Of a stretch of DNA of 64,000 nucleotides, positions 5,693-32,165 are shown one piece after another. The position numbers and the translations under genes are program-made. The stretch covers positions 1 through 64,000 of the forward strand of contig JABJHR010000010.1 in the NCBI GenBank assembly GCA_018661705.1. Reading direction: 5' to 3'. How positions within the stretch are numbered: position 1 is the stretch's first letter; every line of letters begins with the position of its first letter. A model generated the notes under the pieces. That model did no database searches, was not told where the DNA came from, and saw nothing but the letters and a program-made list of their open reading frames with translations. This DNA comes from Candidatus Woesearchaeota archaeon. GTDB taxonomy: Archaea; Nanobdellota; Nanobdellia; Woesearchaeales; DSVV01.

Positions 5693-5699
5693 TATTAAT

Positions 5700-5797: not shown

Positions 5798-5798
5798 A

Positions 5799-6206: not shown

Positions 6207-6261
6207 AGAATATTGAATATATGAGGTATTTATATGTTTTATTAATGATTAGATGTTAATA

Positions 6262-6390
6262 TAGTAGTGGGTTTTGAGTAATGGGTTAGTTATGGGATTT
6301 GGTTATGGATTAATTAGTAATGAGAAAATACAGTTAGACTCATAACTACTTACTGATTACCCACTCAGAACTCATGACTCAAAATAATTT
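6262..6390. repeat. Imperfect inverted repeat upstream of archease
   Basis: Between the 227-aa gene and archease the left part (TTTTGAGTAATGGGTTAG, TTATGGG) is partly complementary to the right part (CATAACTA, ATTACCCACT, ATGACTCAAAA). The match is interrupted and may be a decayed hairpin. No coding potential is seen. Confidence 0.35.
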
Positions 6391-6402
6391 TAGAATTAAT
6401 AT

Positions 6403-7086: not shown

Positions 7087-7110
7087 GTATATAAGAATAA
7101 ATTCTCTATT

Positions 7111-7124
7111 TATAAAGTTTATTA
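7111..7124 (-). promoter_or_regulatory. TATA-type promoter AAACTTTATA
   Basis: On the minus strand the sequence reads TAATAAACTTTATA, 25-38 nt before the ATG of the 227-aa gene. The same block precedes the genes starting at 39256, 42741 and 49553, so it looks like the local consensus for TBP/TFB binding. Confidence 0.5.
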
Positions 7125-7163
7125 GTTTGGACTACTTGTAAGTAGTTATTGTCTGTTGTAAAT

Positions 7164-7865: not shown

Positions 7866-7950
7866 ATTTTAAAGATTGCTTTTATGTCTTTTAAATGTTT
7901 TGACCTATTTTTTGAGATAATCTTAACTTTTTTCCTATTTTTCTGATATA

Positions 7951-10183: not shown

Positions 10184-10200
10184 TTTAAGTATACCTCTGT

Positions 10201-12379: not shown

Positions 12380-14044
12380 TTACTCAATACCAGCTAAAAA
12401 CGCTCTTTCATACTGCTGTTTAACTGCTTTCCATTTTCTAAAGAATTCATCTTTAATTGCAGGGTGAACAATTAAGATTCCATTTTCTGTGTGTGGATTT
12501 CTTTTGTTATATTCTAAACTTTGTCCATCAACATCAGTAACACTTACCCCTAATGCATTTAAAATAACATGGCCTGCCACAGTATCCCATTCTTTTAATT
12601 GTCTTGTATAACCAATTATTGCATGTGTTTCTTGATTAATAACATGTAACATTCTTGTTCCCATACTTCCAGAAAGAACAACTTTATTCCTATCAATCCC
12701 TAATTGTTCATAAATTGTTCCATATCTTCTTCCACCATGATTTCTGGGATGACCAATTTTCATATCTTCCCATGTTAATGAAACATCTTTTAATGAAGGT
12801 AATGGGTTTATTTTAACAGCATCTGGACCAGTAGCAACATAGGCTTTACCTTTTTTCCTTGCAAAATAAATTTCACCTTTTATTGGATCGCAAATAACTC
12901 CTGCTTTTGGAACTCCTTTTTCAGTATAACCTAACATAAAACAAAAGTCTTTTCCCCCCCGAGAATAATTTCCACTTCCATCTAATTCATCTGCAATAAA
13001 TACTTGATCATAATCCAATCTCTGAAGTGTATCTTTACTTTCTTCTGTTAATAGTGCAACATTCGGATATCTTCTTGAAATTGTTTCTAATAAAAAATCC
13101 CTTACTCTTAAATCAGCTTGTGTTACAATAGAATAATCTCCCTTTCTTTTTGTATTTCCATTTTTTCCTCTATTTTCCATAATGATTTTTCCAGATTTAA
13201 CAGCAACATATCGCATAAAACTAAGCATGACCTCAAGTTCATCTTTACTTCTTATAGATGGATTTTTAGTTTTCTTTCTTTCTTTCTTCTTAGTTTCTTC
13301 TTCTTCTTTCTTTTGATCAGTTTCTCTTGTAGTATTAGTTTCTTTTTCTTTAATCCCATTATTTATAATTCCCATCATAACTGCTGCGTTAATCACTGCA
13401 TCATATCCATTCATTCCTTCTTCTGATTGAAGTTCATAACTTAATGCATATAACCCATAAGCAATTTCTACCATGCCTTGAGATTGTTTTGTCCTTAGAA
13501 AATCTTTATTTAACATTCCTACTCTTACTCTATCTAATGCATCACTATCTTTTAGTATTTTCAATTCAAGAGTCATTTCAGGTGCACGATGATCATCAGG
13601 TTCATGCCATCTATTCAAATATGCAACTGTTTCAACATTAACTGTAAGTGAACTTTCTTGTTCTGGAATAACATCTGCATATTTTTCTAAGATCCATTCT
13701 GCACTGTATTGGCCATGGTTCCAACCAAAACCTTCTCCAATTCTTCGAGTATCATGTGTTGAAGCAGCCCATCTAGTTTCTTCATCATATTTTACTTCGT
13801 TTCCTTGTTTTTGTATTAACCTACTTATTAGTTCTGAAAAAACTAAAACTCTTGTAGAATGATCAACACCATGATCTCCATGAGATTTTCTAGCAAACCA
13901 TTCTTCTTTTGTTCTATATTTTTCAAAGAAACTAGCATGCGGTAAATCATTTCCTAATAACTCTCTTAATAATTTAATTTCATATTGTAATTTATGATTC
14001 TCTGCAAAGTCTTCTAATATTGGTTGTGCTGTTTCATGAATCAT
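12380..14044 (-). CDS. HD-domain protein fused to CysQ/inositol-monophosphatase domain
   Basis: Residues 1-235 form an HD-type phosphohydrolase: HGDHGVDHS (55-63), STHDTRR with the HD pair at 97-98, and DSDALDR near 167-172. A charged linker (about 236-265, rich in Glu and Lys) leads to a phosphatase of the inositol monophosphatase/CysQ superfamily: LLTEESKD (331-338), ADELDGSGNY (351-360, the metal-binding DxxDG) and EWDTVAGHVIL. CysQ enzymes remove the 3'-phosphate from PAP(S); HD domains cleave nucleotides or phosphate esters. The fusion suggests successive phosphate removal from one nucleotide-like compound. It follows the radical SAM genes with a 20-nt gap, so it is likely part of that operon. 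Confidence 0.82.
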   Translation of the reverse strand: MIHETAQPILEDFAENHKLQYEIKLLRELLGNDLPHASFFEKYRTKEEWFARKSHGDHGVDHSTRVLVFSELISRLIQKQGNEVKYDEETRWAASTHDTRRIGEGFGWNHGQYSAEWILEKYADVIPEQESSLTVNVETVAYLNRWHEPDDHRAPEMTLELKILKDSDALDRVRVGMLNKDFLRTKQSQGMVEIAYGLYALSYELQSEEGMNGYDAVINAAVMMGIINNGIKEKETNTTRETDQKKEEEETKKKERKKTKNPSIRSKDELEVMLSFMRYVAVKSGKIIMENRGKNGNTKRKGDYSIVTQADLRVRDFLLETISRRYPNVALLTEESKDTLQRLDYDQVFIADELDGSGNYSRGGKDFCFMLGYTEKGVPKAGVICDPIKGEIYFARKKGKAYVATGPDAVKINPLPSLKDVSLTWEDMKIGHPRNHGGRRYGTIYEQLGIDRNKVVLSGSMGTRMLHVINQETHAIIGYTRQLKEWDTVAGHVILNALGVSVTDVDGQSLEYNKRNPHTENGILIVHPAIKDEFFRKWKAVKQQYERAFLAGIE

Positions 14045-14064
14045 TTTTATTTTTTTATTTTTGT

Positions 14065-16584
14065 TTACCTTACTAAATCTCTAATTCTACTGTTTCTGTT
14101 AAATTTTCCAGTAGGGAGATCCTGACTAGGAACAACATCATCTCTAAAATAATTTGTTAATATTCTTAATATTCCTGATTTGCCATCATTATACTGGAGT
14201 CTTCCAGTAAAGCTAATTGGGTTAAGACCAACTCTTTCTCTTGGTGGAAGATAGGCACCTACAAGACAATGATATCCTGTTTGTAAATTATGGACCATGT
14301 CATACATTTGTTCAACAACTTCTTGATCTGTTAGTGGTCTGTTTGTTCCTGCTTTAATTTCTTGATCCATTATTTCTGTATATTTTGAACCAGGCATTGG
14401 TGTTGTTGTTAAGAAAGTAATAAATCTTGGTTGAATTCTATTTAATAATTTTGCTGTCTCAACAACATGATCTTGATAATATTTAATCCCTCCTAATCCT
14501 GGCATTATCATAACAGAAGTCCAAATATCAGTTTGTCCTAATTTTAAACCAGCCTCTACCATTTGCTCATGAGTATTGCCTTTGTTTACATATGATAAAA
14601 TAGAATCTGCTCCTGTTTCAATACCCCAATAAACCATTCCAAGACCAGCATTATCTAATTGATTAAGTTCCCTTGCTGTTTTTCTATTTATTCCTTCTGT
14701 TCTTCCGAAAGCAGCAATTCTTCTTATATTAGTTCTTCCATTATATTTTCCCCCATGATAATGGTAGTTTTCTATAGTATATGGTTGGTTATCAAATGTT
14801 TTTTTTGCAATTTTTAGATAATCAAGTAGTTTTCTTGTTGGCAACATAAATATATTTCCACCAGCAAGAAATATTCTTTGAATGTAAGCAATATCCTTTC
14901 CTAATTTTTTCTTAATTTCTTTTACATGCGCCTTAAACTTTTCAGGGCTTCTAACAAAGAATTTTGTGTCACCATAGGCAGTACAATACGTACATTTTGC
15001 ATAATCACAACCATTACCAACTTCTACTTTTATTACTCTGTTCATTTCTTCTGATGGTGGTGAGAATGGTTCACTATTATATACGTCTTCGTCGTGATAC
15101 AAAAACATTCTTCTTAACTTTGGTATAAAATTACTGTCAAGTAAAGCTTTAAATGTTGCTCTTAATAATCCTGTATTATCCTTAGCATATCTTTCATCAA
15201 CTTGAGCTCTTCTCTTTACTATGTCATACTCTGTTCTAATTATGTTAGCTAAAACATCTGCTTGTTGTTTTGCAATAGCTATTCTTGCTGGTTTAAATTT
15301 AGTTAATGCTTCTGTGATTTGATTAATATATTGGACAAAACCTCTTTGTGAAGTAACTTTTTTCCCTTTTGGTTTCACTTTGGCTTTATATTGAAATGCA
15401 TGTTCAGCTAATGTTACTAACTGTTGGAATGGTAAATCTATCTTTCTGATATCACCAATGCCTCTTATTTCATAATCAAAGTCGTCTCCTCTTTCAATTG
15501 CAGCAATTTGGTCTACATTTAAATTATATTCTCTTCTTAATGCAGTAGTCGCTTCTTCAACCTTTTTATCAAATGTAATCCCAATAATTCGTCTTGCTTC
15601 TTTTTTATATTTTGGCATTAATGATTCTTCAGCTTTTGCAATTAATTCAATGGCTGCTTTTTTTGCATTTCCATCGTATTGGGCAAGCATGCTTTCAAAA
15701 ATGTTTTCTCCTGTTGCAGTGATTTCATCAGGATGCATCTGCCATGATTTGTATATTTTTTCTACAGTTTTTTCTTTTGCTGCCTTGGCTTCTCTTCTTC
15801 TTTTTCTTTTTCCTTTTTTTCTATTTTTCTTTTTTTGTCCACCATCTTCTGTTTCTTGATTTACATTTGGTATATTTTGTACATCATCAATTTCAAATAA
15901 AACTTCTAATCTATCACCTGTTCCTAAACCAATTACTTCACCTTTGCTTCTAAGTGGAATATCAGTTTCATTTCCACCATGATAATAAACAGGATCAAAT
16001 GTTCCTTCATCATAATCAATTTCCATTAATTGTGTTGCTTCTACTATATCTCCTAATCTAATCTCATTTGTTTTATCTTTCTTTAACCGTTTCTTCATAG
16101 TTTTTTCAATTTGTTTAACTAATTTTTGTTTATAACCTTGATATTCTTTTTCTGTGTTTATATTTCCAAAATTTAATTCAATTTTAAATCTTTCACTAAG
16201 GTCTTTTAATAACTCTGCACCATATTGTTGATAATTAATTATTGGATTCTCAAGGGCAGCTGCTCTTTCTGTTTGTATTTCATTAACAGTTTGATCCATT
16301 CCTTTAAATTTACCCACAATTTCTTGTTTTAATCTTTTTTCCAATTCTTCAAGAGAAGGAATCTCATCTAGAAATGCATCAAAATCTTCTCTATGATTTA
16401 TTCCTGGAATTAATTCAGAATAAGTTTCATATAACTCTGTTTCTCCTAACACACCTAAGACTTGTTTTAGTCTATCTTGAGCTGCAAGCTGATAAAAACT
16501 AGCAAAAAGATTTGTAAATATATCTTTCTCAGTAATTTGTATCTTTGCTTGTGCTTTTTTTACTTCTGTTCTTGCTACTGCCAT
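14065..16584 (-). CDS. Radical SAM protein with long N-terminal extension and SH3-like module (paralogue 2)
   Basis: The C-terminal part (about 505-800 of 839) is a radical SAM enzyme of the group with PPSEEMNRV before the cluster and VGNGCDYAKCTYC as the iron-sulfur motif (C526, C531, C534; CX4CX2C). RIFLAGGNIFMLPT, a GIETGADSILSYVNKG SAM-binding segment and MPGLGGIKYY follow. The first 500 residues are extra: a helical start, an SH3-like barrel (about 178-290, with HGGNETDIPLRSKGEV and QMHPDEIT split by a Lys/Arg-rich loop), and more helices. The same module occurs in the 882-aa paralogue and the 965-aa protein. It probably works in trans with the E1/E2/JAMM proteins; the substrate is unknown. 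Confidence 0.85.
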   Translation of the reverse strand: MAVARTEVKKAQAKIQITEKDIFTNLFASFYQLAAQDRLKQVLGVLGETELYETYSELIPGINHREDFDAFLDEIPSLEELEKRLKQEIVGKFKGMDQTVNEIQTERAAALENPIINYQQYGAELLKDLSERFKIELNFGNINTEKEYQGYKQKLVKQIEKTMKKRLKKDKTNEIRLGDIVEATQLMEIDYDEGTFDPVYYHGGNETDIPLRSKGEVIGLGTGDRLEVLFEIDDVQNIPNVNQETEDGGQKKKNRKKGKRKRRREAKAAKEKTVEKIYKSWQMHPDEITATGENIFESMLAQYDGNAKKAAIELIAKAEESLMPKYKKEARRIIGITFDKKVEEATTALRREYNLNVDQIAAIERGDDFDYEIRGIGDIRKIDLPFQQLVTLAEHAFQYKAKVKPKGKKVTSQRGFVQYINQITEALTKFKPARIAIAKQQADVLANIIRTEYDIVKRRAQVDERYAKDNTGLLRATFKALLDSNFIPKLRRMFLYHDEDVYNSEPFSPPSEEMNRVIKVEVGNGCDYAKCTYCTAYGDTKFFVRSPEKFKAHVKEIKKKLGKDIAYIQRIFLAGGNIFMLPTRKLLDYLKIAKKTFDNQPYTIENYHYHGGKYNGRTNIRRIAAFGRTEGINRKTARELNQLDNAGLGMVYWGIETGADSILSYVNKGNTHEQMVEAGLKLGQTDIWTSVMIMPGLGGIKYYQDHVVETAKLLNRIQPRFITFLTTTPMPGSKYTEIMDQEIKAGTNRPLTDQEVVEQMYDMVHNLQTGYHCLVGAYLPPRERVGLNPISFTGRLQYNDGKSGILRILTNYFRDDVVPSQDLPTGKFNRNSRIRDLVR

Positions 16585-16672
16585 TTTTTCTATATTTCTT
16601 TTTCTTACTATTATTACTTTTTACTATTTCTTTTTAATAATCTTTTTTCAAATGTATAACTTAATTTCAAAT

Positions 16673-19321
16673 TTATAATTGTAACTTCCTTTGGACCATC
16701 CACTCTTGAAGCATTTGTGCTTTTTGTGCTGCTTCTAGCCCTACTAAACTTTCTTGAGTAATCTGTTCTCTTTCCATTCTTTTATGTGCATGTTCACGTA
16801 AATAACTATCCGCATTATATTTTGCCTCTGGAATTAATAAGCTTGGGTTGTGTTCCTCCCCGCCAAAATAGTTATATTCAATAGTTGACATTATATCCCT
16901 TTTTTCTCCTCTATGAAGATGTCCTCTAAACATAATTGGATTAATTGCTATTTTTGCTGCAGGAGGATAATATGTTGCTACAAGTGATCTATATTCACCA
17001 GTTACTCCCCTAACAATATCATACATTTGTTCAACAACTTCTTCATCTGTTAAAGGTCTATTTGTTCCTGCTTCCATTTCTGCTTTCATATTAGCTACAT
17101 ATTTTGTACCATGTTTTGGTGTTACTGTGTGAAAAGTTGTCCATCTTGGTTTTAGATAATTTATCATTTCTACTGTTCTTTGAACATGTTCTTCATAATA
17201 TTTAATTCCACCTAAACCAGGCATTATCATTAATGAGAGCATCATACGTGTGTCAACAACCTTTTTTGCTGCTTTATCCATATCTTTTCTAGTAATTCCT
17301 TTATTAACATATTTTAAGACTTCATCAGAACCTGTTTCAACACCCCAATAAAGTAATCTTAGATTCATCCCAACCAATTCTCTAATCTCAGCAACTGATT
17401 TTTTTAATAAGCCTTCTGTTCTGCTGAATGCTTCTATTCTTCTAATCCCATTTATTCTTCTTCCTCTATTATTTCCTGTCCCATTCTGAATTGGTTGTCT
17501 ATCAAATAATCCATTAACAACATTAAGATATTGTTTTAATCTTTTTGTTGGCAAACTAAATATATTTCCACCAGCTAAGAAAACTCTTTCAATGTATCTA
17601 ATATCTTCTCCTAACTTTTCTCTAACTGCTTCTGCATGTTCTTTAAACTCAGTTGGGTTACGAACAAAATAATCTGCCCCTGCATATTCTTTACAAAAAG
17701 TACATTTTGCATAATTGCAGCCATTACCTGTTTCTAATTTAACTACTCTTGATAATTCTTCAGATGGTGGTGCAAATGGATCTCCTCCTTTAAACAAAGA
17801 TCTATCAGCATACATTATTAATCTTCTAGTCCATGCAGCATTTTCTGGGTGTAATAATTGTTTAATCATTTCCTGCATTACATTTGCATTAGGATTTCTT
17901 AATCGTAATTCTCTTTCTTTTAGATAATGTTGCTTTGCAACTAGTGCTCCAACTTCATCACAAATAGTTTTTGCAAGTTTTATAGCTCCTTTTTTCCCAG
18001 TAACAGTTTTTGCTTGTTCTGTCACATATTTTCTTAATGCCCTTTCTCCTCTTATTTTTGCTTTGTGAGGTCTTTTTATTTTGTCTTTCTGTTTGTTAGA
18101 AACTCTTATGCTTAATGCTTCATAAAACAGCAATCCTAACTCATAAAATGGTGCCCTTGCATTAGTAATTGCTTCTAGTCCAGCAACTTCATACTTGAAA
18201 TCTGCTAATGCTTCATCTCCTTCTGCCTTATGAATTGCTAAAATCTGTTCAATATTTATTCCATATTTTTTTCTTAATGCAGTTGTTGATGCTTCTATTT
18301 CTTGATTATAACCAAGATTAATAACGGTTTTCTTAGCTTCTATATGTATTGGCATTAAAACTGCTTCAATTCCATCAACTATTTCTTCAGCAAGTTTTAA
18401 TGTATCTCCTCCATGAGCATCTATATTTGCTTTTATATTATTAACACCTATTTTAGTTATTTCATCAGGGTGCATCTGCAATGTTTTGTATGTTTTTTCT
18501 CTTGTTTCTTCCCCTATATCTTTTCCAATTCTTGCTTGTTTCTTTTTCTTCACTCCTTTTCTTCCACTTTTTTGTCCACCATCTCTTGTTTCTTTTACTT
18601 CTCTTGTATTTTCAATTTCAAATAAAACTTCTAATCTATCATCAGCTCCTAAATCTACTACTTCACCTTTACTTCCAAGTGGAACATCAGTTTCATTTCC
18701 GCCGTGATAATAAACAGGATCAAACGTTCCTTCATCAAAATCAATTTCCATTAATTGGGTTGTTTCTACTATATCTCCAGCGTTAAATCCAGATGGATGT
18801 GCTTTAACAAATTTATCCTCTAGACTTTTAGCAATTTGTTTTGTTAATTTTACTTTATATCGGTTAAACCCTTTTTCAGATTGATTTACTCTTTCATAAT
18901 CTGCTCTACTTATATTAATTTCAAACCCAGGGACGCTATTAATTCTGATTGAGAGATCATTAAGATATAGTTGGTAATCAATCAATGGGTTTTCAAGAGC
19001 AGTTGCTCTTTTTTCTTCAATCTCTGTAATCTTATTTTGCATTAGTTTAACTTCTTCAATTGTTTCTTTTCTTAATATTGCTTCTAACTCTTCTTGTGCT
19101 GGCAAACTTTCTAAATACTCTTGAAAACCTTTTGCATCTTTAATTTCTGGTATTTGTCCAAAATAAACATCAAATAATCGTCTTTTTCCAAGTACTTCTA
19201 AAACTTTTCCTAAGGCTTCTTGTGCCATTAAATTATAAGTAGTAGAGTATAATTTAGCTGTAACATCTTCTTTAGTTTCTTGTGTTTGTATCTCTTGCAT
19301 TTTTTTTCTTGCTACTGCCAT
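16673..19321 (-). CDS. Radical SAM protein with long N-terminal extension and SH3-like module (paralogue 1)
   Basis: The 882-residue protein is colinear with the downstream 839-residue paralogue, both starting MAVAR. The SH3-like region is at about 180-290 (HGGNETDVPLGSKGEV, later QMHPDEIT). The radical SAM domain follows from about 515: PPSEELSRVV, NGCNYAKCTFC (C535, C540, C543), RVFLAGGNIFSLPT, WGVETGSDEVLKYVNKG and MPGLGGIKYY. The C-terminal domain matches a widespread, functionally unassigned free-standing radical SAM family; the 500-residue extension is what is new. The tandem copies could act as a heterodimer or on two sites. AAAGGAAA precedes the ATG. It is co-oriented with the E1/E2/JAMM genes, 72 nt after the 965-aa gene. 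Confidence 0.86.
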   Translation of the reverse strand: MAVARKKMQEIQTQETKEDVTAKLYSTTYNLMAQEALGKVLEVLGKRRLFDVYFGQIPEIKDAKGFQEYLESLPAQEELEAILRKETIEEVKLMQNKITEIEEKRATALENPLIDYQLYLNDLSIRINSVPGFEINISRADYERVNQSEKGFNRYKVKLTKQIAKSLEDKFVKAHPSGFNAGDIVETTQLMEIDFDEGTFDPVYYHGGNETDVPLGSKGEVVDLGADDRLEVLFEIENTREVKETRDGGQKSGRKGVKKKKQARIGKDIGEETREKTYKTLQMHPDEITKIGVNNIKANIDAHGGDTLKLAEEIVDGIEAVLMPIHIEAKKTVINLGYNQEIEASTTALRKKYGINIEQILAIHKAEGDEALADFKYEVAGLEAITNARAPFYELGLLFYEALSIRVSNKQKDKIKRPHKAKIRGERALRKYVTEQAKTVTGKKGAIKLAKTICDEVGALVAKQHYLKERELRLRNPNANVMQEMIKQLLHPENAAWTRRLIMYADRSLFKGGDPFAPPSEELSRVVKLETGNGCNYAKCTFCKEYAGADYFVRNPTEFKEHAEAVREKLGEDIRYIERVFLAGGNIFSLPTKRLKQYLNVVNGLFDRQPIQNGTGNNRGRRINGIRRIEAFSRTEGLLKKSVAEIRELVGMNLRLLYWGVETGSDEVLKYVNKGITRKDMDKAAKKVVDTRMMLSLMIMPGLGGIKYYEEHVQRTVEMINYLKPRWTTFHTVTPKHGTKYVANMKAEMEAGTNRPLTDEEVVEQMYDIVRGVTGEYRSLVATYYPPAAKIAINPIMFRGHLHRGEKRDIMSTIEYNYFGGEEHNPSLLIPEAKYNADSYLREHAHKRMEREQITQESLVGLEAAQKAQMLQEWMVQRKLQL

Positions 19322-19393
19322 TTTAATTTCCTTTAATTATAATTTTTTTTGGTTTATTGGTTTTTTAATAACTTTTTTTTAAAAACAAATATT

Positions 19394-22291: not shown

Positions 22292-22364
22292 TTTGTTTTT
22301 TTATTAAATCATTGATGCTTTTTTGTTGATATTCTTTTCTTATTTATTTTCTAGTTTTCTTAAT

Positions 22365-23891
22365 TTATTCTGTTCCTGTTTGTTGTAATAATTGTGGATT
22401 TTTTGCAACAAATTTATCAATATCTTTTTGTGAAATTCTTAAATCAGGAACTGGTTTACTATAACAATCACATGCACCAACTAATTCTGATGTTCCAAAC
22501 CTTGTAGATAAATCTGCTCGATACATTAGTTGGCCATTAAATGGTTCACCAAATTTCTCTGGTTCAAAAACACTTAATGCTGCAATTACTGCTCCAACAC
22601 CACCAACAGCATTACTCATTACAACTGACGGATTTGGGTTTGCAGCACAACTTGCTCTTCTGATCATTTCTTCTTTCATACCTTCTTTATAGATATCCAT
22701 TAAATGGTTCATACATTGTGTTTTTCCTTCTTGATGTGTGTCCCATCTTGCACTATCTGGCAAAGCACCTGAACTAATTAATGGTGTTCCAGTTGAGATT
22801 GCATATGCACAGTTAAGTGCTCGTGTATATCTGTTATCAACAAAATCAAAGACTAAATCATATTTTTCTTTTGTCTCAAATCCAGGTAAAATTAATTCAT
22901 TATAACCCGTTGATCTCGTTCTTCCTAAAGTCATTGCAACTATTTTTGCTGCAATATGTTCTGATTTTAATTTATCAATCCCATCATATGCTAATAATTG
23001 TCTATTAACATTATGTGATTCAAATTTATCATAATCAAATGTATCAACTCTTCCAAAACCCATGTGAGAGGCGGCAATTGCACCCCAGTTACCTAATGCA
23101 CCTACTCCTAAGAATCCTAATTTAAGTCTTGCTAATAATGCTTTATCAGGCAAAGGAACATCTTCACCTTTTTCTAAAAATCCATATCTATAACCCGGTC
23201 CTAGTTTGTATCTTACTGGTTTCTCTAAAAATTTATCAAAATTTCCCATTGCAACTTTTTTAACTTCTTCTGCAATAACTCCGCACATCATTAATGCCAT
23301 TAGTGGATCTTGTTTATATCCTTCAAACATTGGCATTAACATTTCCGTATTTTGAGCTCCAAGATCTCTATTGTGATCAGTTGCCATTAATTTAGTATAT
23401 CCCCATTTTGATGATGTACTAATTACAGGAATGCCTTTTTCTCGTCCATAAGCAATTGCTAATGATTTTGATTTTATTGAGTTAGTTGCATCTACAATAA
23501 CAGTAGCGCCTTCTAATGCCATTAAATCCATTCTAGATTCAAGATTTGTAGTGTAACCTTCAAAATTAACTTGTTGATTTATTACTTTAAGTAATTCAGG
23601 ATATGATTTTGCTCTTGAACCGCTTTTTACAACCATGTCTAAAAATAATTCACTTTTTGCAGTAGTGCCTTTTCTAACATTACTTCCATCAGCATCACTG
23701 CCATCAATTAAAACAACATTACCAACTCCTAAAGCAGCTAAACACAAAGCAGTATACTTTCCTTGCCAATCTAAACCAACAATTGCTACTCTCGCATTAG
23801 CTAATTTATTCTGGCCTTCATCACCCCAGAGCATTTTCTGCCTAAGGTATCTTTCAGCTTCAATCATTTCTGTTGTTTTTTCTTCTGTCAT
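22365..23891 (-). CDS. E1-like enzyme with two ThiF domains
   Basis: E1/ThiF/MoeB enzymes adenylate the C-terminus of a ubiquitin-like protein. The N-terminal half starts like a ThiF domain (RYLRQKMLWGDEGQNKL, ARVAIVGLDWQG at 33-44, LIDGSDADGSNVRKG) but its GxGxxG and NxxRQ motifs are degraded. The second half is intact: FLGVGALGNWG (262-267 loop), FDYDKFESHNVNRQ with Arg finger (294-298), DFVDNRYTR (D352) and a C-terminal GGVGAVIAA helix. Candidate thiol or zinc cysteines are C393, C415, C474 and C476. An inactive plus active pair in one chain is the plan of eukaryotic Uba1 and of some bacterial E1s, unlike single-domain MoeB. The neighbours are a JAMM protease upstream and the SH3-module proteins downstream. 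Confidence 0.87.
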   Translation of the reverse strand: MTEEKTTEMIEAERYLRQKMLWGDEGQNKLANARVAIVGLDWQGKYTALCLAALGVGNVVLIDGSDADGSNVRKGTTAKSELFLDMVVKSGSRAKSYPELLKVINQQVNFEGYTTNLESRMDLMALEGATVIVDATNSIKSKSLAIAYGREKGIPVISTSSKWGYTKLMATDHNRDLGAQNTEMLMPMFEGYKQDPLMALMMCGVIAEEVKKVAMGNFDKFLEKPVRYKLGPGYRYGFLEKGEDVPLPDKALLARLKLGFLGVGALGNWGAIAASHMGFGRVDTFDYDKFESHNVNRQLLAYDGIDKLKSEHIAAKIVAMTLGRTRSTGYNELILPGFETKEKYDLVFDFVDNRYTRALNCAYAISTGTPLISSGALPDSARWDTHQEGKTQCMNHLMDIYKEGMKEEMIRRASCAANPNPSVVMSNAVGGVGAVIAALSVFEPEKFGEPFNGQLMYRADLSTRFGTSELVGACDCYSKPVPDLRISQKDIDKFVAKNPQLLQQTGTE

Positions 23892-23941
23892 TTTTGGTTT
23901 TTATGATCTTGTTAATTTTGATTTTTTAATTATATCTTTGT

Positions 23942-26155
23942 CTATTTCTTATCTGTTCCTTTTTTAGCAGGACTTTTATTAGCAGAGCCTTTTCCAGTTG
24001 TTGTGTTAGTAGTAGTTTGTGGTGTAATTGGAGTAACAGTTGCGCCTGGTCCAATATAAGTTGTAGACATTGGTTGTCCATGTGTATCAACTATCCCAGT
24101 ATATTCTTGGGCAGGTTTTTCTGCAGTTCCAATTGGTACATAGTTCTCTGGTCCTTGATCATATGATTCTAGAACGCTTTCAACATATGATTTCAATAAA
24201 ACATTTCTTCCAAAAGTTGTTCCTACAATAAATTGAGACATAAATTGAACTGTTTCGTCATCATATTCTACTCCCTTTGGTCTATGAGCAATTTCCCCAT
24301 AAATATTATCAGTCATGTTATTGAGTTTGAAAAAATCAATCTTATGTCTTTTTACAACTAATGGGTTGTCTTCTACTAATGGTCCTAATTCCTCAATACA
24401 ACTTCTTAATCCCAGAATTGGCCCCATATCAATATAATTCTGTTTTCCTGCATGACTTATTGATGTTCGTAAGTTTGCAGATTTATGTGGACCATGGTAA
24501 GCAGAAAGTAAACTTACTAAAACAGATACATAAGTTGAATATTTACTTTGTGGATGTCTACCTTCTCTTAAATAAGAAAACAATGCAAGACCAAATAAAT
24601 CTGTAATTTCAGATATTGAATAATATTTCCCATCTGATTTTTCTATTTGATCCTTTGGCATGTCTTTTTTCCCATTACCCATTCCAATTGCTTCACCAGT
24701 GTCAATTGCTTCTAATAATTCAGAACCAATATTATCTTCTACTTCAGGCTCTGGTAATACTAAATCTTCAATTCCTTCTTTTAAAATATGTCTTGCTGTT
24801 TTTCTTCCCCGTGCATAACTACTAGTTGCAGTGCTTGTTCCTTGTCCATGAAAACCTTGTGGTCCTCTTGCCCCACCTTGATAAGCTTTACCTTTTCCAC
24901 CTTTACTTCCTTTTTTACCTTTACCCTTACTTCCTACATCTCTCCATACACCAGCTACGTTATCAAAGAATCTTCCAGCTGCTGCCTTAGCAACATTTTT
25001 TGGTGCTACATAAGGAAATTTAACTCTTTGTTTTACAATTGCAGCAACTTCTTCTGCTGTTGGAATATCAATTCCTACATCAGTTATTTCATAAGGAATA
25101 TTTGCAATTGAATCATAATCTTCTGTTCCAGAAAATGCAAATCTTTCTCTAATCCCTAGCTTAACAAATGGATTATCTCCACCATTATTAAATACAAAAC
25201 TAATTCCATATGCAACAATTCTTGGTTCATATGTTTCTTTACCAACCATGTCTAATAATCTTGCTAAAAATTCCGCTTTCTTGAAATCTTTTGCATCAGG
25301 TTTTAGACCAAATTCTTGTAATGCTTTGAAAAATAATTCATCTTCTGGATAAACAAATCTTTGAATATAATCAGACAGTGCATCTCCTCTTAGATAAATT
25401 CCATCATCACCATATTCTGTTCTTATCTTTTCTTGGAACAATGCAAATGGTGCATCATATGGAACTTTTGTTGTTTTACTCATCTTGTTTACAAGATTAA
25501 CTAAAACTTCATTATCATCTTGAGAATGATAAAGGCCTTGTCCTTTTTCTGATGGATGTATATGAAACATTGCACCTATTCTTCTTCTTATTTTTAATAC
25601 TTGATTTTCAGCTCTAACTTCTCTTGCTGCTTGATCATAATGTTCAGCAATGTAAATACTTCCTGTTGTTACTGGTAAATCTTTTGGAACAATAAAATCC
25701 ATGAGTGTAACTTTATCTTCATCTATGTCTCTAAGAAAAAACCCGCCAACTTCTAATCTTTTTTTACCTTGTTTTCTTGTTTCAGGACCCACCATCTTCC
25801 CAAATTGGATGCATCTATCTCTAATGTAAATCTTTTCAGGAGCTAATTCTTTTAATGGAGTTACTTTCATCTGAACTTTTTCTTCAACTTCTTCTCCTAA
25901 TACAGAAGCTAATAAATCATCTCCTAAACCATCATCATCAAATGAACCATTATTTAATCCACAAGTCCCATCAGGACATTCATCTACTGTTGTTCCTGTC
26001 TTTTTTGTCTTTTTAGTATTTCCAGTATCTCCAGATTGTTCATCTGCATAAGCATCAATAATATCATCCATATCTTCTGGTTCTTTTCCAGATTTCTTTT
26101 TTGTAGTTCCTTTTTTCCCTGGTACTTTTCTGTCTGTTATTTTTATCCTTGGCAT
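23942..26155 (-). CDS. JAMM/MPN (Mov34/JAB) metalloprotease with C-terminal extension
   Basis: JAMM proteases cut isopeptide or linear bonds after ubiquitin-like C-termini. The zinc site is complete: E135 in RLEVGGFF, then FHIHPSEKGQGLYHSQDD giving H198, H200, S211 and D214 (H-x-H-x10-S-x2-D). The domain spans about 100-235. The N-terminus is basic and low-complexity with a CPDGTC pair; a 400-residue C-terminal part follows, including a GKGKKGSKGGKGKAYQGG linker (about 410-430) and a helical domain. The tail after 690 is Thr/Pro/Lys-rich. At 737 residues it is far longer than the 110-150-aa archaeal JAMM proteins. Position between E2-like and E1-like genes points to deconjugation or precursor processing in one pathway. 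Confidence 0.87.
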   Translation of the reverse strand: MPRIKITDRKVPGKKGTTKKKSGKEPEDMDDIIDAYADEQSGDTGNTKKTKKTGTTVDECPDGTCGLNNGSFDDDGLGDDLLASVLGEEVEEKVQMKVTPLKELAPEKIYIRDRCIQFGKMVGPETRKQGKKRLEVGGFFLRDIDEDKVTLMDFIVPKDLPVTTGSIYIAEHYDQAAREVRAENQVLKIRRRIGAMFHIHPSEKGQGLYHSQDDNEVLVNLVNKMSKTTKVPYDAPFALFQEKIRTEYGDDGIYLRGDALSDYIQRFVYPEDELFFKALQEFGLKPDAKDFKKAEFLARLLDMVGKETYEPRIVAYGISFVFNNGGDNPFVKLGIRERFAFSGTEDYDSIANIPYEITDVGIDIPTAEEVAAIVKQRVKFPYVAPKNVAKAAAGRFFDNVAGVWRDVGSKGKGKKGSKGGKGKAYQGGARGPQGFHGQGTSTATSSYARGRKTARHILKEGIEDLVLPEPEVEDNIGSELLEAIDTGEAIGMGNGKKDMPKDQIEKSDGKYYSISEITDLFGLALFSYLREGRHPQSKYSTYVSVLVSLLSAYHGPHKSANLRTSISHAGKQNYIDMGPILGLRSCIEELGPLVEDNPLVVKRHKIDFFKLNNMTDNIYGEIAHRPKGVEYDDETVQFMSQFIVGTTFGRNVLLKSYVESVLESYDQGPENYVPIGTAEKPAQEYTGIVDTHGQPMSTTYIGPGATVTPITPQTTTNTTTGKGSANKSPAKKGTDKK

Positions 26156-26220
26156 TTTTTCATCCCCATAATCATTTGATTTATTTTCATGATTTTCTTA
26201 ATTTTTGTTGAGTAACATAT

Positions 26221-27636
26221 TTACCTTACTTTTGTCTCTAATACCTCAATAATTTGATAACCTTGTTTTTCTGCTTCTTTTCTTGTTAATGATCCTTGTA
26301 ACAGGATTCTATCAATATGAGTTCCAAAAAAGGAGTGTCCTGTGTGTCTTTCTAAACTTGGCGTGTTTAATGGCTCAAAAAATGTCCTTACACCTTCATC
26401 TAATTTTTTTACAAAACCCATTGGAGTCCTAGCGTATTCTGCTGCATCTAATGTACACATATCACTAAATTCTTGATTTCTTTTATACATACAAGGATGG
26501 TCTTTTCTTTGTTCAACTGATTTTGCTTTTCCACTTGAATAAGGTTTTCCTCTATCCCATCCCATATGGATTGCAATTCTTGTTTCATCGTATGGCCAGA
26601 ATACTTTTCCATTTCTGCTATCTTGTGTTGCAATCTTTGGTGTTCTTGAATAAACATAATAACTTCCATCATTCATAACAAATCCACAAGTACCTAAATC
26701 TAATTCATTTAGTTTAGCTAATTCATGCATTTGTCTTTCTGTAATATCTTCTGTTTTTAATTTATCTTTTATTTCACCAAATGCATCTTGGCTTCTTTCT
26801 AGTGCAGAAATTCTCCATGTTCTTTTTCTTCTTTCTAAACTTTCATTAGAAATTTGTGATACATTGACTGGCATTTCACTTGGTTTGTAAGTTTTACCGT
26901 TTAAGTTAAATACTAAATCTGTTCCATTAACTTCTGATCTTTTTACTAATTCTAATTGATATGCAACCCCATCTAAAATATACATTGGTTGTAATGCAGT
27001 AACTTCTCCTAAATATGAATTAGAAATTGTTTTATCTTTAAGACCCATTTTTCTTAAAGATTGTTTTTCACCAAGTATTGTACGTGTTTCTATTCCTTTT
27101 TTTTCCTTTCTTAATACCTTTTCTCTCATTTCCTCTGCTGGATCTTTTTCATCATCTTTTTTATCCTCTAATCCAAATTTTTCAGTTAATATTTCATGGA
27201 TTTCTTTTTTAGCTTTTTCAACAGGTGATTCAACTTCATCTTCTTCAATTACACCAATTGCCGCTAGTAATAAATCATTAGAATCATATTTTCTACTGTA
27301 CACTAATGGTAAAAGTTCAGTCATAATAAACTTTAATGTTCTTAATCTTGTTTTTTCTTGTCTGACTTCTAATTCTTCTCTTAATTCTTGATCAATTGTT
27401 TCTTTAACATAATTTCCACAGTATATTTCTATTTCTTTTTGTTGAAGACTTTCATCTAAATTTTCAAAGTCAGAAAAAGACATAGAAGGAACTAAATCCA
27501 TGGCTTTTATTTGCCCAGCTTCTATAAAATCATGGCTCCCATTAGATTCCACAATATCATAAACTCTTCCGCCAAATAAAACAAACGAAGATTGCCTTTC
27601 AACAATCCTGTCTAAAAATGTATTTAGTTCCGTCAT
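26221..27636 (-). CDS. E2-like (UBC-fold) candidate conjugating protein
   Basis: E2 enzymes carry a ubiquitin-like protein on a cysteine. The C-terminal region (about 315-440 of 471) has a beta-meander (YYVYSRTP, ETRIAIHMGW), then HPCMYKRNQEFSDMCTLD (H380, P381, C394), a helix and EPLNTPS (421-427). In canonical E2s the order is HPN, 7-8 residues, C-x-D, a WSP helix and DPNxxSP, so the match in order is good; the HP-to-Cys loop is about four residues longer and the Asn is Cys. The first 310 residues are helical with an acidic coiled-coil part and a small beta domain. Alternative: an unrelated orphan with a chance HP...C match. The setting between a JAMM gene and the candidate modifier supports E2. 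A TATA-like GTTATAAATACC lies 40-55 nt upstream. Confidence 0.55.
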   Translation of the reverse strand: MTELNTFLDRIVERQSSFVLFGGRVYDIVESNGSHDFIEAGQIKAMDLVPSMSFSDFENLDESLQQKEIEIYCGNYVKETIDQELREELEVRQEKTRLRTLKFIMTELLPLVYSRKYDSNDLLLAAIGVIEEDEVESPVEKAKKEIHEILTEKFGLEDKKDDEKDPAEEMREKVLRKEKKGIETRTILGEKQSLRKMGLKDKTISNSYLGEVTALQPMYILDGVAYQLELVKRSEVNGTDLVFNLNGKTYKPSEMPVNVSQISNESLERRKRTWRISALERSQDAFGEIKDKLKTEDITERQMHELAKLNELDLGTCGFVMNDGSYYVYSRTPKIATQDSRNGKVFWPYDETRIAIHMGWDRGKPYSSGKAKSVEQRKDHPCMYKRNQEFSDMCTLDAAEYARTPMGFVKKLDEGVRTFFEPLNTPSLERHTGHSFFGTHIDRILLQGSLTRKEAEKQGYQIIEVLETKVR

Positions 27637-27744
27637 TGTTGTTCAACCAGTAATTTGTTCAACTCTTACAAATGGTATTTATAACAAATTATACCCTTGT
27701 TAAAGCCTTACTTTATTACTGATAATTACCTCAAATTTTAGTAA

Positions 27745-28419
27745 CTAAATTGCCTTGTCAAGTGTAGCATATCTAGTTGTGTCTTGTTGTTTAGCCATAT
27801 CTTGGTATTCATCACCAGGGATAATTATTGCTGTTACAACAAGTTCAACACCACCCATCATTTTTACAGGGTTTTTCCCTCTCATAAGTGGGGTGTCATT
27901 TTCAGTTACTTCTTTACTTGCTTTTGGAACTGGTTTATCACCGTCCATAACAAATGTCATTTCTTGGAAATAACTATTAGCGTATGAATCTTCAGTAACT
28001 CTTTGTCCATTAATTTGTACAGTGTAACCACCGTGTTTTCCACCTTTAGCTTTAATGATTTTTTCAATTCCTGCTCCTTCTCCTGTCATTTCAGCATTAA
28101 TGCTTAGAATAGCATCTTTGAATTTGTCTGATGGGTTTCTTTTGAATGGTCTGTTTTTATAATCTGCAGGAATTCCTTTAGCAGTTAATGTAACTTCCTG
28201 TCCAAGTGAATATTGGATAAGTTGGCTAACTGTTCCATATGCAATTACTGCTCTCTGATCTCCTCGAACAGAGTATGTCATTCTGTCTCCCTCAGTACAT
28301 CCACCATAAATGGTTAATGTAATTGGTAAGTCTGCAATTTCATCTAATTTAAACTTCTTTTTCTTAACCTTTTTTTCGCCTTTTCTGTCTGCAGGCCTTT
28401 CATTTCCACATTTTGTCAT
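27745..28419 (-). CDS. 224-aa protein, candidate modifier of the E1/E2/JAMM cluster
   Basis: The protein begins with a basic tail (about 1-24) and continues as a beta-rich soluble domain: LPITLTIYGG, RMTYSVRGDQRAVIAYG, EVTLTAKGIP, then YTVQINGQRV and EMTFVMDG. Near the end is KMMGG (G189-G190), followed by a hydrophobic strand VELVVTAIII and a 20-residue tail. A ubiquitin-like protein needs an exposed terminal GG; here it would have to be made by cutting after G190, a job for the nearby JAMM protease. The beta-grasp assignment is not certain, and the strand after GG argues against simple processing. AGGAGG 8 nt before the ATG is the strongest start signal in the cluster, consistent with an abundant product. 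Confidence 0.6.
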   Translation of the reverse strand: MTKCGNERPADRKGEKKVKKKKFKLDEIADLPITLTIYGGCTEGDRMTYSVRGDQRAVIAYGTVSQLIQYSLGQEVTLTAKGIPADYKNRPFKRNPSDKFKDAILSINAEMTGEGAGIEKIIKAKGGKHGGYTVQINGQRVTEDSYANSYFQEMTFVMDGDKPVPKASKEVTENDTPLMRGKNPVKMMGGVELVVTAIIIPGDEYQDMAKQQDTTRYATLDKAI

Positions 28420-28517
28420 TTTCTATTCCTCCTATGTCTTTCACTTTTTATCACTTCTTTGTTAGCATGATCTCACTCTTCTTTTTTTGTTAAACTTAAA
28501 ATAATAAAAATAAATAT

Positions 28518-30626
28518 TTAAAATGTTAAATCATCTGTAGTTGTTTTGGTTGTATCTGTCCCTGCAAGAGCAGTTTGTCCAAGATCTTTGAAATGTCTTT
28601 GATATGATCTTGTGCCAAAATACCATGGTTCTTTTATTTTTCCACCATGGTTTGCTTTTAGTTCTTCAGCAAATTTTGCATCTCCAACTTGTTGTCTATA
28701 TGCAATTGCAAAATCAATCATAACACCTGGAATATTTCCACCACCACAACATCCACCAGTATCTGGTGTGCCATGTTGGAAACATCCACCAGTTGGGCAT
28801 GTTTCCATTAATACACCATCTGTTAATTGTAATAATGTTGGTGTTGCTGCATATTGTTCTTGAAGATTATAATATTCTCTTGCTGTTCCATATTGGTCTC
28901 TAAGTGAAGTAGCAAACAATAATTCATCTCTTGATTTTTTGACTCTGTCTGAGATTCTTTTTCCAATCTCAACCATCTCATTTACGCCTTCTGCTCGACC
29001 TTCTCCGATTGCTTTGAATAAACTATTTACAATAGTCTTTCCTACAAATATATCTTTATTATCATCATGCCATCCATTATATTGTGCTTTTATTCCTTCT
29101 GCATTAAACACTAGGACATCTCCATCTGGATTTGCTTTGTGAATTGCAGCTTCTTTTTTAGCAGTACTTGCTAAGTAAAGAACTGTTGCAGATGGAAATT
29201 GTTCTTGTATCTGGCTTTTTGTAATTGCTTTATCAGTAATAATCACAAAAGGCATTCCAGTTTCTTCTACTGGTGGCAAATTAATATAACTTCTAACTTT
29301 TTTTCTTGTATGTCTTTCCATCCCATATTTTGTTAATCCATCTTTCTTTCCAGAAAACAACATTACTAATTCATGGTCAGTTCTTAATGGCATTTTATAT
29401 TCGCCTTTTTCAACCATTTCATCTACAAGTACTCTTCTACCAAGAGCTTCTAATTCTTCTCTAACATCATAAAAATGCTCATTGCCTTTTGAGATTAATT
29501 CCTTTGCTTCTTTTAATTCTGATACTATCATCTCTCCTAAATCTTCTTCTCCTTTTGCTCTTCTTGCATTGACGAAACTCAAATGATTACCTATAAGGTT
29601 TCTTTTTTCTTCGTCACCATTTACTTGAGATATATCAACAATTAATGCTTGAACTCTTTGATTTATTGCTACTTCATCAACAACACCATCAACTGCAATT
29701 ATTCCTGCTGTTAATTCTTCTGTTAATGTTTTTTCAATTGCTGCTTTTTCTTTCATAGTTGTTGCTAAGTATAATACCGTTGATCTGTCATATAATCTTG
29801 AAACATCTTTTAGAGGAATAGCATCATTAACAATAACCATTGCTGGATTTTGTCCATTATTATTTGGACGAGCCATGATTTCTTTTGTATATTCAAATGC
29901 TACTTCAGTTATTTCATCAATATGATTTCTATTATTCTTAGAGGAAACAAAAATAGCATGTTTTTCAGATGGTTGTTCAAATAAATATTCTAGTGAACCC
30001 ATTTTTTTCATTACTTTTTGGTATTGTGATGTAAACCCTATTCCTGGTTTGAATAAACCAATTTCTAAAAACTTACCTAACATTTCTGCTGCTCGTTTTC
30101 TATCAGCAGTCCCAATCTCAGCTGGAATTTCGTCAGTAGTTGAAAAAGAAAGTTTAGGATCTACATCTGCTAGTAAATAATCTAATCCAAAAAATTCATT
30201 GTCTAGGGTTGGTGCATCCATAACTGCACTTAAGAATTGTTCTCTTAATTCTGGTTTTAATAATGCAGTTGCATTAAAGACTTCATCTAAAAATCCTTGT
30301 TCGTCTTTGTTTTCTGCTCTTTTAAGAACAACATCAAGTGCTTTATCAAATATTTCTGCGCCAAGATATGCACGTGCAAATGGTGCAATTTTAACAATAT
30401 GTACTGGGTCTTCAAATGCTTTACATGCTTTTTCTAAAAATGCTGCTGTATTTTTATACCCTGCTGCTAAATCTACTTCTTGTGTAGGATCTTCCATATT
30501 CATTCCAAAAGAAGTTAATAAGTTCATGCCTAACATTGTTACATTATCTTTGCATATAGCATTTGTTCTTACAGTGTTTAAATTTAATAGTTTTTCTAAA
30601 TAAATAGTATGGTTTGTCTCAGTCAT
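28518..30626 (-). CDS. 702-aa protein with internal duplication and Cys/Gly-rich patch
   Basis: No known family is recognised. Two related domains are visible: PAMVIVNDAIPL...STVLYLATTMKEKAAIEK (about 265-330) and PFVIITDKAITK...ATVLYLASTAKKEAAIHK (about 455-515), each an alpha/beta unit with the signature TVLYLA-S/T-T. Long helices separate them. Near the C-terminus lies TCPTGGCFQHGTPDTGGCCGGG with C610, C615, H618, C626 and C627, a likely metal or iron-sulfur site or a persulfide acceptor. The start codon is 3 nt after the cysteine desulfurase stop, and its GAGAGG Shine-Dalgarno lies inside the last desulfurase codons, so the two are translationally coupled. That coupling suggests sulfur or cluster delivery between them. 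Confidence 0.75.
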   Translation of the reverse strand: MTETNHTIYLEKLLNLNTVRTNAICKDNVTMLGMNLLTSFGMNMEDPTQEVDLAAGYKNTAAFLEKACKAFEDPVHIVKIAPFARAYLGAEIFDKALDVVLKRAENKDEQGFLDEVFNATALLKPELREQFLSAVMDAPTLDNEFFGLDYLLADVDPKLSFSTTDEIPAEIGTADRKRAAEMLGKFLEIGLFKPGIGFTSQYQKVMKKMGSLEYLFEQPSEKHAIFVSSKNNRNHIDEITEVAFEYTKEIMARPNNNGQNPAMVIVNDAIPLKDVSRLYDRSTVLYLATTMKEKAAIEKTLTEELTAGIIAVDGVVDEVAINQRVQALIVDISQVNGDEEKRNLIGNHLSFVNARRAKGEEDLGEMIVSELKEAKELISKGNEHFYDVREELEALGRRVLVDEMVEKGEYKMPLRTDHELVMLFSGKKDGLTKYGMERHTRKKVRSYINLPPVEETGMPFVIITDKAITKSQIQEQFPSATVLYLASTAKKEAAIHKANPDGDVLVFNAEGIKAQYNGWHDDNKDIFVGKTIVNSLFKAIGEGRAEGVNEMVEIGKRISDRVKKSRDELLFATSLRDQYGTAREYYNLQEQYAATPTLLQLTDGVLMETCPTGGCFQHGTPDTGGCCGGGNIPGVMIDFAIAYRQQVGDAKFAEELKANHGGKIKEPWYFGTRSYQRHFKDLGQTALAGTDTTKTTTDDLTF

Positions 30627-30629
30627 TTT

Positions 30630-32165
30630 TTAACCTCTCACCGTTTTACTAATTTCTTCTACTGCAATTGCTGCTTTTGCAACATCTGCTTGATTGTTGT
30701 AAACATAAAAACTTAATCTAACGCTTCCTTCAATTCCAACATATTGATGGGCTAGTGATGCACAATGATTTCCATTTCTTGCTTCAATCCCATTTTGATT
30801 TAATTGAAAAGCAACTGATTGTGATTCAATTCCATCAATTTCAAACGCTGCTAATCCACTTCTTTTTGTTGCATCCATTGTTCCATATATTTTAACTCCA
30901 GGAATTTCTGCTAAAGCATATAACATTTTCTGAGTTAACTCTTCTTCATGTTGCATTATGTTTGTCATTGCTCTTTTTACAACATCTCTTGATAATGCTA
31001 ATCTTGCTTTTGGTTCTCTTAAGCTCGCAACCAATCCAGGATTCTGGCCTAGATAAGCTCTCCAAGTATCTGCTAAATGTGGTGCAACATTATAAGGAAT
31101 GTTTAATTCTCCTCGAGGAGTATTCATTAAAACTTCTGTTTTAATTTGCTCTCCAGTTAATCTTACTTCTTCATCTTTTGATACATCTAAAATATTAAAT
31201 ATATTTCCTAATCCAATATTCATCATGTGCATAATTCCATAACCTGTTCCAATTGTTCCTAATATGTTTGGAGTTCCTGCTGTGAATTTCCATGGTATTT
31301 CTTTATATTCAACAAGTCCTTCTTGAACATCTTCAATCATATCTCCTCCATAAAGGAATGGATCTAATGATTCAAGAATAGCTTTTTTTGCATATAGTCC
31401 TCCAACACCTAATGGTAACGCCATTTTGTGGAATGACCATGCTAAGAAATCACAATCTATTTCTTGTACATCTACTGGAGTTCCAGGAACTAGTTGTGCT
31501 GCATCTACTAAGAAATATGATCCACTAAATCCATCTGGTCTTGGTTGAGAATAACCGCTTGCATGAGCAATTTTTCCAATTGTTTTAATATCAGGTTTAA
31601 TTCCCATAAAGTTTGATGCACCAGTTGCAGTAACTAATTTTGTTTTATTATCAACTAATCTTTCTAGTTGTTGCATGTCTAGTTCTCCTGTTTCTTTATT
31701 AAAATCAACTAATTTTATTTCAATATCAATTCCTCTTCTAGCTAAAAGTTGTTGTAAACCATACCATGGAACATAGTTTGAATTATGTTCTAATCTAGTT
31801 GCAACTATATTATCTCCATCTCTAAAATCATCAGACATAGTTCTCATTGCAAGATTAATCATTTCAGTTGTATTTCTACCTAATACAATTTCTTGCCAAT
31901 GCTCAGCATTTACTAAATTAGCTGTAACATTATATGCTCTTTCAAATTCTTCAGTAGTAATTTGAGAAGCATCATATTCTCCTCTGTGAATATTAGCATA
32001 AGTGAACAAACTTTTTGCAATATGTTCAAGAACAGGTAATGGTAATTGTGTAGAGGCAGTATTATCTAAAAAAGCTCGTTCTTCTTTGATAGAACTTTCA
32101 GCCCTAATTTCAAGAACTTGTTGTAAGAATGGAAATTGTTTTCTAATTACTTCTGTGTTTAACAT
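30630..32165 (-). CDS. Group II cysteine desulfurase (SufS/CsdA type)
   Basis: The enzyme removes sulfur from cysteine as a persulfide using PLP. Key features are FLDNTASTQLP at the start, H127 in LEHNSN, D221 in FLVDAAQLVPG, the PLP lysine K247 in SFHKMALPLGVGGLYA, TAGTPN, and the active cysteine C468 in ARNGNHCASL, so it should be active. At 511 residues it is about 100 longer than SufS; an insert of some 80 residues lies near 315-395, after the TGYGIMHMMN helix. It is the first gene of the minus-strand cluster, with GAGGGGGTGATGG before the ATG and a structured leader. It could supply sulfur for a thiocarboxylated modifier, for the radical SAM clusters, or for tRNA thiolation. Confidence 0.92.
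   Translation of the reverse strand: MLNTEVIRKQFPFLQQVLEIRAESSIKEERAFLDNTASTQLPLPVLEHIAKSLFTYANIHRGEYDASQITTEEFERAYNVTANLVNAEHWQEIVLGRNTTEMINLAMRTMSDDFRDGDNIVATRLEHNSNYVPWYGLQQLLARRGIDIEIKLVDFNKETGELDMQQLERLVDNKTKLVTATGASNFMGIKPDIKTIGKIAHASGYSQPRPDGFSGSYFLVDAAQLVPGTPVDVQEIDCDFLAWSFHKMALPLGVGGLYAKKAILESLDPFLYGGDMIEDVQEGLVEYKEIPWKFTAGTPNILGTIGTGYGIMHMMNIGLGNIFNILDVSKDEEVRLTGEQIKTEVLMNTPRGELNIPYNVAPHLADTWRAYLGQNPGLVASLREPKARLALSRDVVKRAMTNIMQHEEELTQKMLYALAEIPGVKIYGTMDATKRSGLAAFEIDGIESQSVAFQLNQNGIEARNGNHCASLAHQYVGIEGSVRLSFYVYNNQADVAKAAIAVEEISKTVRG

Follow-up and report, generated by a model that had tools for sequence, protein, structure and literature searches.

The question raised by positions 12380-32165 of a 64,000-nucleotide stretch of DNA from a Candidatus Woesearchaeota archaeon (contig JABJHR010000010.1 of assembly GCA_018661705.1, positions 1 to 64,000; hereafter the window) is what is specified by a gene run in which E1-like, JAMM, cysteine desulfurase and radical SAM proteins follow one another. 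The interval looks like a full ubiquitin-style tagging set, with a tag, an activating enzyme, a carrier and a tag-removing protease, and we consider it about 55% probable, judging from the predicted proteins and their relatives, that it represents an archaeal ubiquitin-like conjugation cassette (Bil/Bub-like) together with a dedicated sulfur/radical branch. A chance neighbourhood is excluded, because the first nine genes were found in the same order in a second genome (L025), at 32-60% identity.

The interval is occupied entirely by ten open reading frames (ORFs), all on the minus strand, with intergenic gaps of 3, 98, 108, 65, 50, 73, 72, 88 and 20 nt. A preliminary description of the same DNA had counted nine genes; its same-strand arrangement with gaps of 3-108 nt agrees with the coordinates. 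In the order of transcription the genes are:

30630..32165, minus strand: SufS-like cysteine desulfurase, 511 aa (Cys468 codon 30762-30764)
28518..30626, minus strand: orphan protein, 702 aa (C-terminal CPTGGC...GGCC, codons 28746-28799)
27745..28419, minus strand: probable ubiquitin-like pro-modifier, 224 aa (Gly202 codon 27814-27816, followed by a 22-residue tail; Cys4 codon 28408-28410)
26221..27636, minus strand: E2-like protein, 471 aa (Cys394 codon 26455-26457)
23942..26155, minus strand: JAMM protease, 737 aa (HxH...SxxD codons 25514-25564; CPDGTC at residues 60-65)
22365..23891, minus strand: double-ThiF E1, 508 aa (Cys415 codon 22647-22649)
19394..22291, minus strand: protein with an HPDE module, 965 aa, proposed adaptor (weak SH3_15 and DUF2098 matches)
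16673..19321, minus strand: radical SAM protein 1, 882 aa, with an HPDE module (Radical_SAM over cut-off)
14065..16584, minus strand: radical SAM protein 2, 839 aa (Radical_SAM over cut-off)
12380..14044, minus strand: HD-like and CysQ/inositol-phosphatase fusion, 554 aa, peripheral member (Inositol_P match, weak HD)

ThiF matched the 508-aa protein in two stretches. In the second domain G262, G264, D286, D288, N294, R297, K309, D352 and C415 were each conserved in all 29 aligned relatives, which predicts an ATP site and a catalytic cysteine throughout the family, and the N-terminal arginines R14 and R17 were each found in 26 of the 29. The DxD...NxxR pattern of the second domain is missing from the first in the alignment. 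This enzyme, the only ThiF gene product found in the source genome (G000, 1.65 Mb, 92.8% complete), had UBA1 as its best match when its profile was compared with the PDB (2.8e-35), with BubCD and Cap2 scoring lower (best 60 of 81 matches), a ranking that is not a phylogeny, as a query of two domains favours targets that also have two. In the JAMM protease E135, D153, H198, H200, S211 and D214 were invariant (18/18), and the HxH...SxxD pattern was present in 37 of 38 ORFs of the family, the exception being a fragment at a contig end. Pfam gave no match for the window protein itself and a Prok-JAB match for 8 of 18 family members, and the best PDB match of the family profile was an N11-like (Rpn11-like) protein (6fjv, 3e-10), which we take to be the Caldiarchaeum protein. 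The preliminary description had recognised both a double-ThiF E1 with an intact second domain and a JAMM protease with all its zinc residues, and both assignments are borne out by these alignments.

The 471-aa protein likely works like an E2, as argued from its position in the operon and from its HP...C motif. This motif, on which the E2 call had originally been based, is conserved across the family, with H380 in 33, P381 in 36 and C394 in 34 of the 36 relatives; a histidine after the cysteine (H431) was kept in 25. The PDB matches of the core of this family were to unrelated proteins and were taken as chance. Matches to the E2 family UQ_con were obtained in 2 of 279 phylum genomes, the source genome not among them, which is too few for a profile test; the sole match over the cut-off (G438:C1:947036-947326, at L091) is interrupted by three stop codons.

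The 224-aa protein is probably the modifier, because its profile matches that of the proteins with a GG tail that are encoded upstream of E2 in other loci. A profile of the window clade (6 rows) aligned with a profile of tail-bearing members (13 of the other 23 rows of alignment A3) with an hhalign probability of 96.1 (E 3.4e-9), over residues 31-153, so that the C-terminal strand and tail lie outside the aligned part. In most loci the ORF directly upstream of E2 measures 109-267 aa (the counterpart in L062 is a 90-aa piece, cut by the contig end) and its last strand ends in glycine followed by a short tail. GG was found within the last 20 residues in 17 of 35 E2-upstream candidates (window included) versus 15 of 214 other ORFs of 85-290 aa from the same loci (Fisher p 9e-9, an optimistic value as the candidates were chosen by place, from a listing that also showed their ends). 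By eye, seven of the remaining candidates, which make up the window clade, terminate in PG or SG with a tail, three in GA and four in a single G, and those of L019, L024, L076 and L079 give no clear match; the modifier of L124 carries IIIPGG plus a tail. Gly202 was kept in 6/6 rows of the window clade alignment (A9). On the 29 modifier members Pfam gave scattered weak matches (23 families at E <=0.1, with ThiS-like, TGS and ThiS in one member each), which we did not use as evidence, and the PDB matches of the modifier profiles (A3, and A10 at 1.5e-10) were to designed repeat proteins and were taken as chance.

The core, in the order modifier, E2-like protein, JAMM protease and double-ThiF E1, recurs among archaea as an operon type of patchy distribution. 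Relatives of the E2-like protein were found with a four-row profile in 27 of 352 genomes of the order and in 0 of 10 other searched genomes of the genus and family of the window, and with a 36-row profile in 41 of 371 sampled phylum genomes. The mapped loci (n=41, the window and L124 not counted) hold 40 E2 genes, 25 of which are followed downstream on the same strand by JAMM and then E1, a count biased by the entry of 12 loci via E1 and of one more via its E1 separately. JAMM is immediately next in 24 of these 25, other genes lying between in L017; in 4 of the 40 E1 precedes JAMM, and in 11 one or both are missing, some of these near contig ends. Two E2-family genes, flanking E1 on both sides, were observed in each of L024 and L019. 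One scan of viral contigs gave no E2 relatives, and matches of the E1 on plasmids and phages were below 60% identity, those listed being ordinary ThiF-type proteins or unannotated.

The sulfur and radical genes form the second part of the run. The 511-aa protein has an Aminotran_5 match (6.4e-92) and reaches 347.5 bits with the NCBIfam SufS model, under the 475.1 cut-off, so that it is SufS-like and falls outside SufS as that model defines it. It carries the RNGNHC (Cys468) and SFHK motifs, in line with the earlier view of an active-looking cysteine desulfurase, and it looks dedicated because a second Aminotran_5 gene is present elsewhere in the source genome. The 702-aa protein exceeds the cut-off of no family in Pfam, NCBIfam or PADLOC; its CPTGGC...GGCC is invariant in 4/4 aligned sequences and is also present in the fragment from L124; relatives occur in 4 of 371 phylum genomes and in 3 of 378 class genomes, the three being within the four (G254, which holds L056, is in neither genome list and was presumably not drawn). 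The two radical SAM assignments of the preliminary description hold, the 882- and 839-aa proteins scoring 37.5 and 46.2 bits against a Radical_SAM cut-off of 29.5. Its SH3-like modules are reduced to weak matches (SH3_15 0.086, SH3_12 0.11). Relatives of the 965-aa protein come after E1 in many loci. A strict HPDE motif was found in the 965-aa protein and in the first radical SAM protein of the window, the second being without it; at other loci it occurs in 4 of 573 ORFs, namely the E2 of L071 and three proteins of L025, and in 0 of 420 unassigned ORFs. Its sharing hints at a possible common docking element. As for the CysQ fusion that had been included in the system, the fusion gene is present, its product being an Inositol_P/CysQ-kind phosphatase with a weak HD match under the cut-off, but it is peripheral: CysQ/HD homologues follow the radical SAM gene in only one of three relatives whose contig continues, and there as separate genes (G218; L125).

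The set of desulfurase, 702-aa protein, modifier, E2, JAMM, E1, 965-aa-like protein and at least one radical SAM protein was found in the window and in L025, L056, L059 and L124, i.e. in five genomes with four family labels (f1, f76, f60 and f91); the two f91 genomes, L025 and L124, share the class with the window and not the order. Radical SAM genes of the window type number two in the window and L025 and one in L056, L059 and L124. The desulfurase is intact in L025, L056 and L059, and in L124 its gene, like that of the 702-aa protein, is spread across two frames (L124:15484-18968), through either decay or an assembly error. An extra radical SAM gene, with a B12-binding match under the cut-off, lies between the 965-aa-like and radical SAM genes of L025 (L025:13983-15335). 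In a tree of E1 sequences (31 rows) the five genomes fall within an eight-row group with a Shimodaira-Hasegawa-like approximate likelihood ratio (SH-aLRT) of 100, and this same group contains L013, a locus without sulfur and radical genes; the contig of L058 ends within the modifier gene. The conserved co-occurrence in related genomes that had been named as a check was thus observed, both as a recurrent core order and as an extension in five genomes.

Some N-terminal cysteines were compared with the presence of this set. The modifier motif CGxxRP(E/A)DRK was found in 5/5 genomes with the full set and in 0/2 without it (L013 and L057; L058 is not assessable), whereas a second modifier cysteine (Cys41), present in those five and in L057, does not track the set; these are small numbers and related rows. 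The JAMM N-terminus carries CPxGxC in the window, L025, L059 and L124, a single cysteine in L056 and L058, CLDETC in L057 and none in L013, so that the JAMM cysteines appear to follow the set only loosely.

Taken as a mechanism, the preferred reading would run as follows. The JAMM protease would trim the 224-aa pro-modifier after Gly202, and the double-ThiF E1 would adenylate the modifier, its degenerate first domain completing a pseudo-dimer, and take it on Cys415, as the invariant residues suggest. The modifier would then move to Cys394 of the E2-like protein and on to targets, perhaps selected by the 965-aa protein, and the JAMM protease may also undo the link between modifier and target. 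The SufS-like desulfurase and the cysteine-rich 702-aa protein could constitute a dedicated sulfur or iron-sulfur (Fe-S) relay that feeds the radical SAM proteins, and these might modify the protease, the target or the modifier itself. Action on the target, as had been proposed earlier, is possible. Of the earlier overall interpretation, a conjugation core with an added desulfurase/radical SAM set is supported, and thiocarboxylation becomes the less likely branch.

Several results weigh against conjugation by a linked system of this kind. Pfam and PADLOC scans of the 36 members gave no E2 family, searches of the PDB with the 36-row E2 profile and a 32-row core gave no E2, and three of the 36 relatives are without H380. 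The modifier of the window ends in PG and not GG, matched no ubiquitin-like protein (Ubl) family in any library used, and the ThiS profile showed no similarity to the GG-tail profile (prob 0.6). As for the ubiquitin-conjugating (UBC) and beta-grasp folds, which had been put forward as checks, structure predictions of the 471- and 224-aa proteins from two-row alignments gave models too poor to show them (mean predicted local distance difference test, pLDDT, of 35.2 and 37.7). Finally, L057, a member of the eight-row E1 group, has retained the core, the JAMM cysteines and, where its contig ends, part of a radical SAM gene, although only a 77-aa desulfurase remnant and no 702-aa gene were found there, so that the sulfur/radical branch is not tightly coupled to the core.

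Comparison with described systems places the locus near several of these. Bacterial operons of types 6a-6e have been described, of which type 6d has Ubl, E2, JAB and E1 components (PMC1779556), and the account of BilABCD gives its E1 one inactive and one active adenylation domain (PMC11354881). Like these, the window combines Ubl, E2, JAB and a two-domain E1 in one operon, the Ubl and E2 here being putative. Unlike these, it has desulfurase, 702-aa and radical SAM genes in addition, and its modifier and E2 are without sequence match. Type 6d E2 proteins are described as having no histidine before the cysteine and a conserved one after it (PMC1779556), whereas in the family studied here the former is the better kept; membership of Bil or type 6d was rejected on this histidine pattern. 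The second E1 domains of Citrobacter BubCD (PDB 9ea4) and of Cap2, from the cyclic-oligonucleotide-based antiphage signalling system (CBASS), are homologous to that of the window (5.9e-17 and 7.4e-18), but the window E1 is fused to neither JAB nor E2. A type II CBASS was likewise rejected, as E1 and E2 are separate genes and no cyclase model was among the matches listed for nine window proteins. In Caldiarchaeum the C-terminal extension of pro-ubiquitin is reported to be cut by an Rpn11/JAMM protease (PMC5654768). The window resembles it in a candidate modifier with a C-terminal extension and in a JAMM protease whose family profile best matches the N11-like protein, but differs in that no RING gene was identified, in the lack of UQ_con in its genome and in the lack of profile similarity of E2 and modifier to library entries.

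An antiviral defence role of the Bil or CBASS kind, which concerns function and is compatible with conjugation, is doubtful. The spread is patchy, down to the absence of the E2 from the searched genomes of the same genus and family, and the four components equal those of BilABCD, but at E 0.1 no defence family was matched by the 702-, 224-, 471-, 737-, 965- and 882-aa proteins. The remaining proteins matched superfamilies of shared membership (the desulfurase with DndA/SspA, the E1 with E1-E2 among the best 25 of 28, the 839-aa protein with pVip at 0.008), and the neighbourhood contains housekeeping genes. An elaboration of the preferred reading, which we regard as unlikely, is that of a self-modifying Ubl system: sulfur or Fe-S clusters from the desulfurase and 702-aa protein would let the radical SAM proteins alter the system's own cysteine motifs, i.e. 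CPTGGC in the 702-aa protein, CPxGxC at the JAMM N-terminus and CGxxRP at the modifier N-terminus, giving the modifier a second chemical mark besides its C-terminal linkage.

That the modifier is instead a sulfur carrier we find improbable. The E1 would then adenylate it, the desulfurase and 702-aa protein would make a thiocarboxylate, the radical SAM proteins would place the sulfur on a substrate and the E2-like protein would be non-catalytic. The desulfurase and 702-aa genes do adjoin the modifier gene, E1-like activation and a desulfurase link are shared with the Urm1, SAMP, MoaD and ThiS carriers, and the source genome has no other ThiF gene and no ThiS or MoaD match at E 0.001 (71 of 119 sampled phylum genomes have one). 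A ThiS profile (28 rows, selected among 30 loci for being short ORFs with GG at the end) gave a probability of 2.8 with the 29-row modifier set and a weak 30.6 with the window clade, or 17 with eight clade rows, where the score of 25.5 compares with at most 16.8 for 40 column shuffles, 11.3 for the reversed profile and at most 19.9 for four unrelated profiles. Against such a carrier stand the conservation of E1 Cys415 and E2 Cys394, the loci at which the core is unaccompanied by sulfur genes (L013, L014, L060 and others), and the JAMM protease and C-terminal tail, which suit processing and removal; to our knowledge, the Urm1, SAMP, MoaD and ThiS systems have no E2. Least probable is that a conjugation core and sulfur/radical genes merely co-travel under one promoter as two pathways without interaction. 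In its favour, the core occurs without these genes and some of them have disappeared from L057. Against it, in five genomes they stand on either side of the core, CGxxRP goes with the set (5/5 versus 0/2 testable clade members) and HPDE recurs in a radical SAM protein, in the 965-aa protein and in an E2 from a different clade, the last two points resting on small numbers.

If the preferred reading, a conjugation cassette with a sulfur/radical branch, is true, a phylum of small archaea (E2 profile 41/371) has widespread operons for Ubl, E2, JAMM and an E1 that joins two domains in a single chain, and these form a divergent branch that was unrecognised by the profile libraries used here. The linkage to desulfurase and radical SAM genes would then open to testing, within one operon, the old question of how protein conjugation and sulfur transfer became separate, or combine. 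Titles and abstract openings in the literature gave no combination of Ubl with radical SAM or desulfurase and no Woesearchaeota, DPANN or Nanoarchaeota ubiquitin case like this one, a partial coverage by which absence from print is not established.

Outside the run the window encodes eIF2-gamma, FtsZ, FttA and a proteasome subunit, and it is therefore archaeal and chromosomal. Two adjoining proteins of 404 and 379 aa are encoded at window positions 8990-11340, without Pfam match and without relatives in the 41 mapped loci. Related operons show further additions. Tandem, very large JAMM proteins (1403 and 1026 aa) lie ahead of E1 at L067:583-4794 and 4840-7920. Directly upstream of the modifier gene, L014:10156-11649 and L060:10606-12090 encode an AAA ATPase with a proteasomal ATPase OB domain over the cut-off, which suggests a proteasome link in that branch, and the related operon of L066 has a ClpB-D2-like AAA protein. 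In one branch Ser/Thr protein kinase genes are found close downstream of the core (L078:14840-16339 and L082:12191-13756). The presence of AAA ATPases and kinases in related operons fits targeted proteolysis or signalling.

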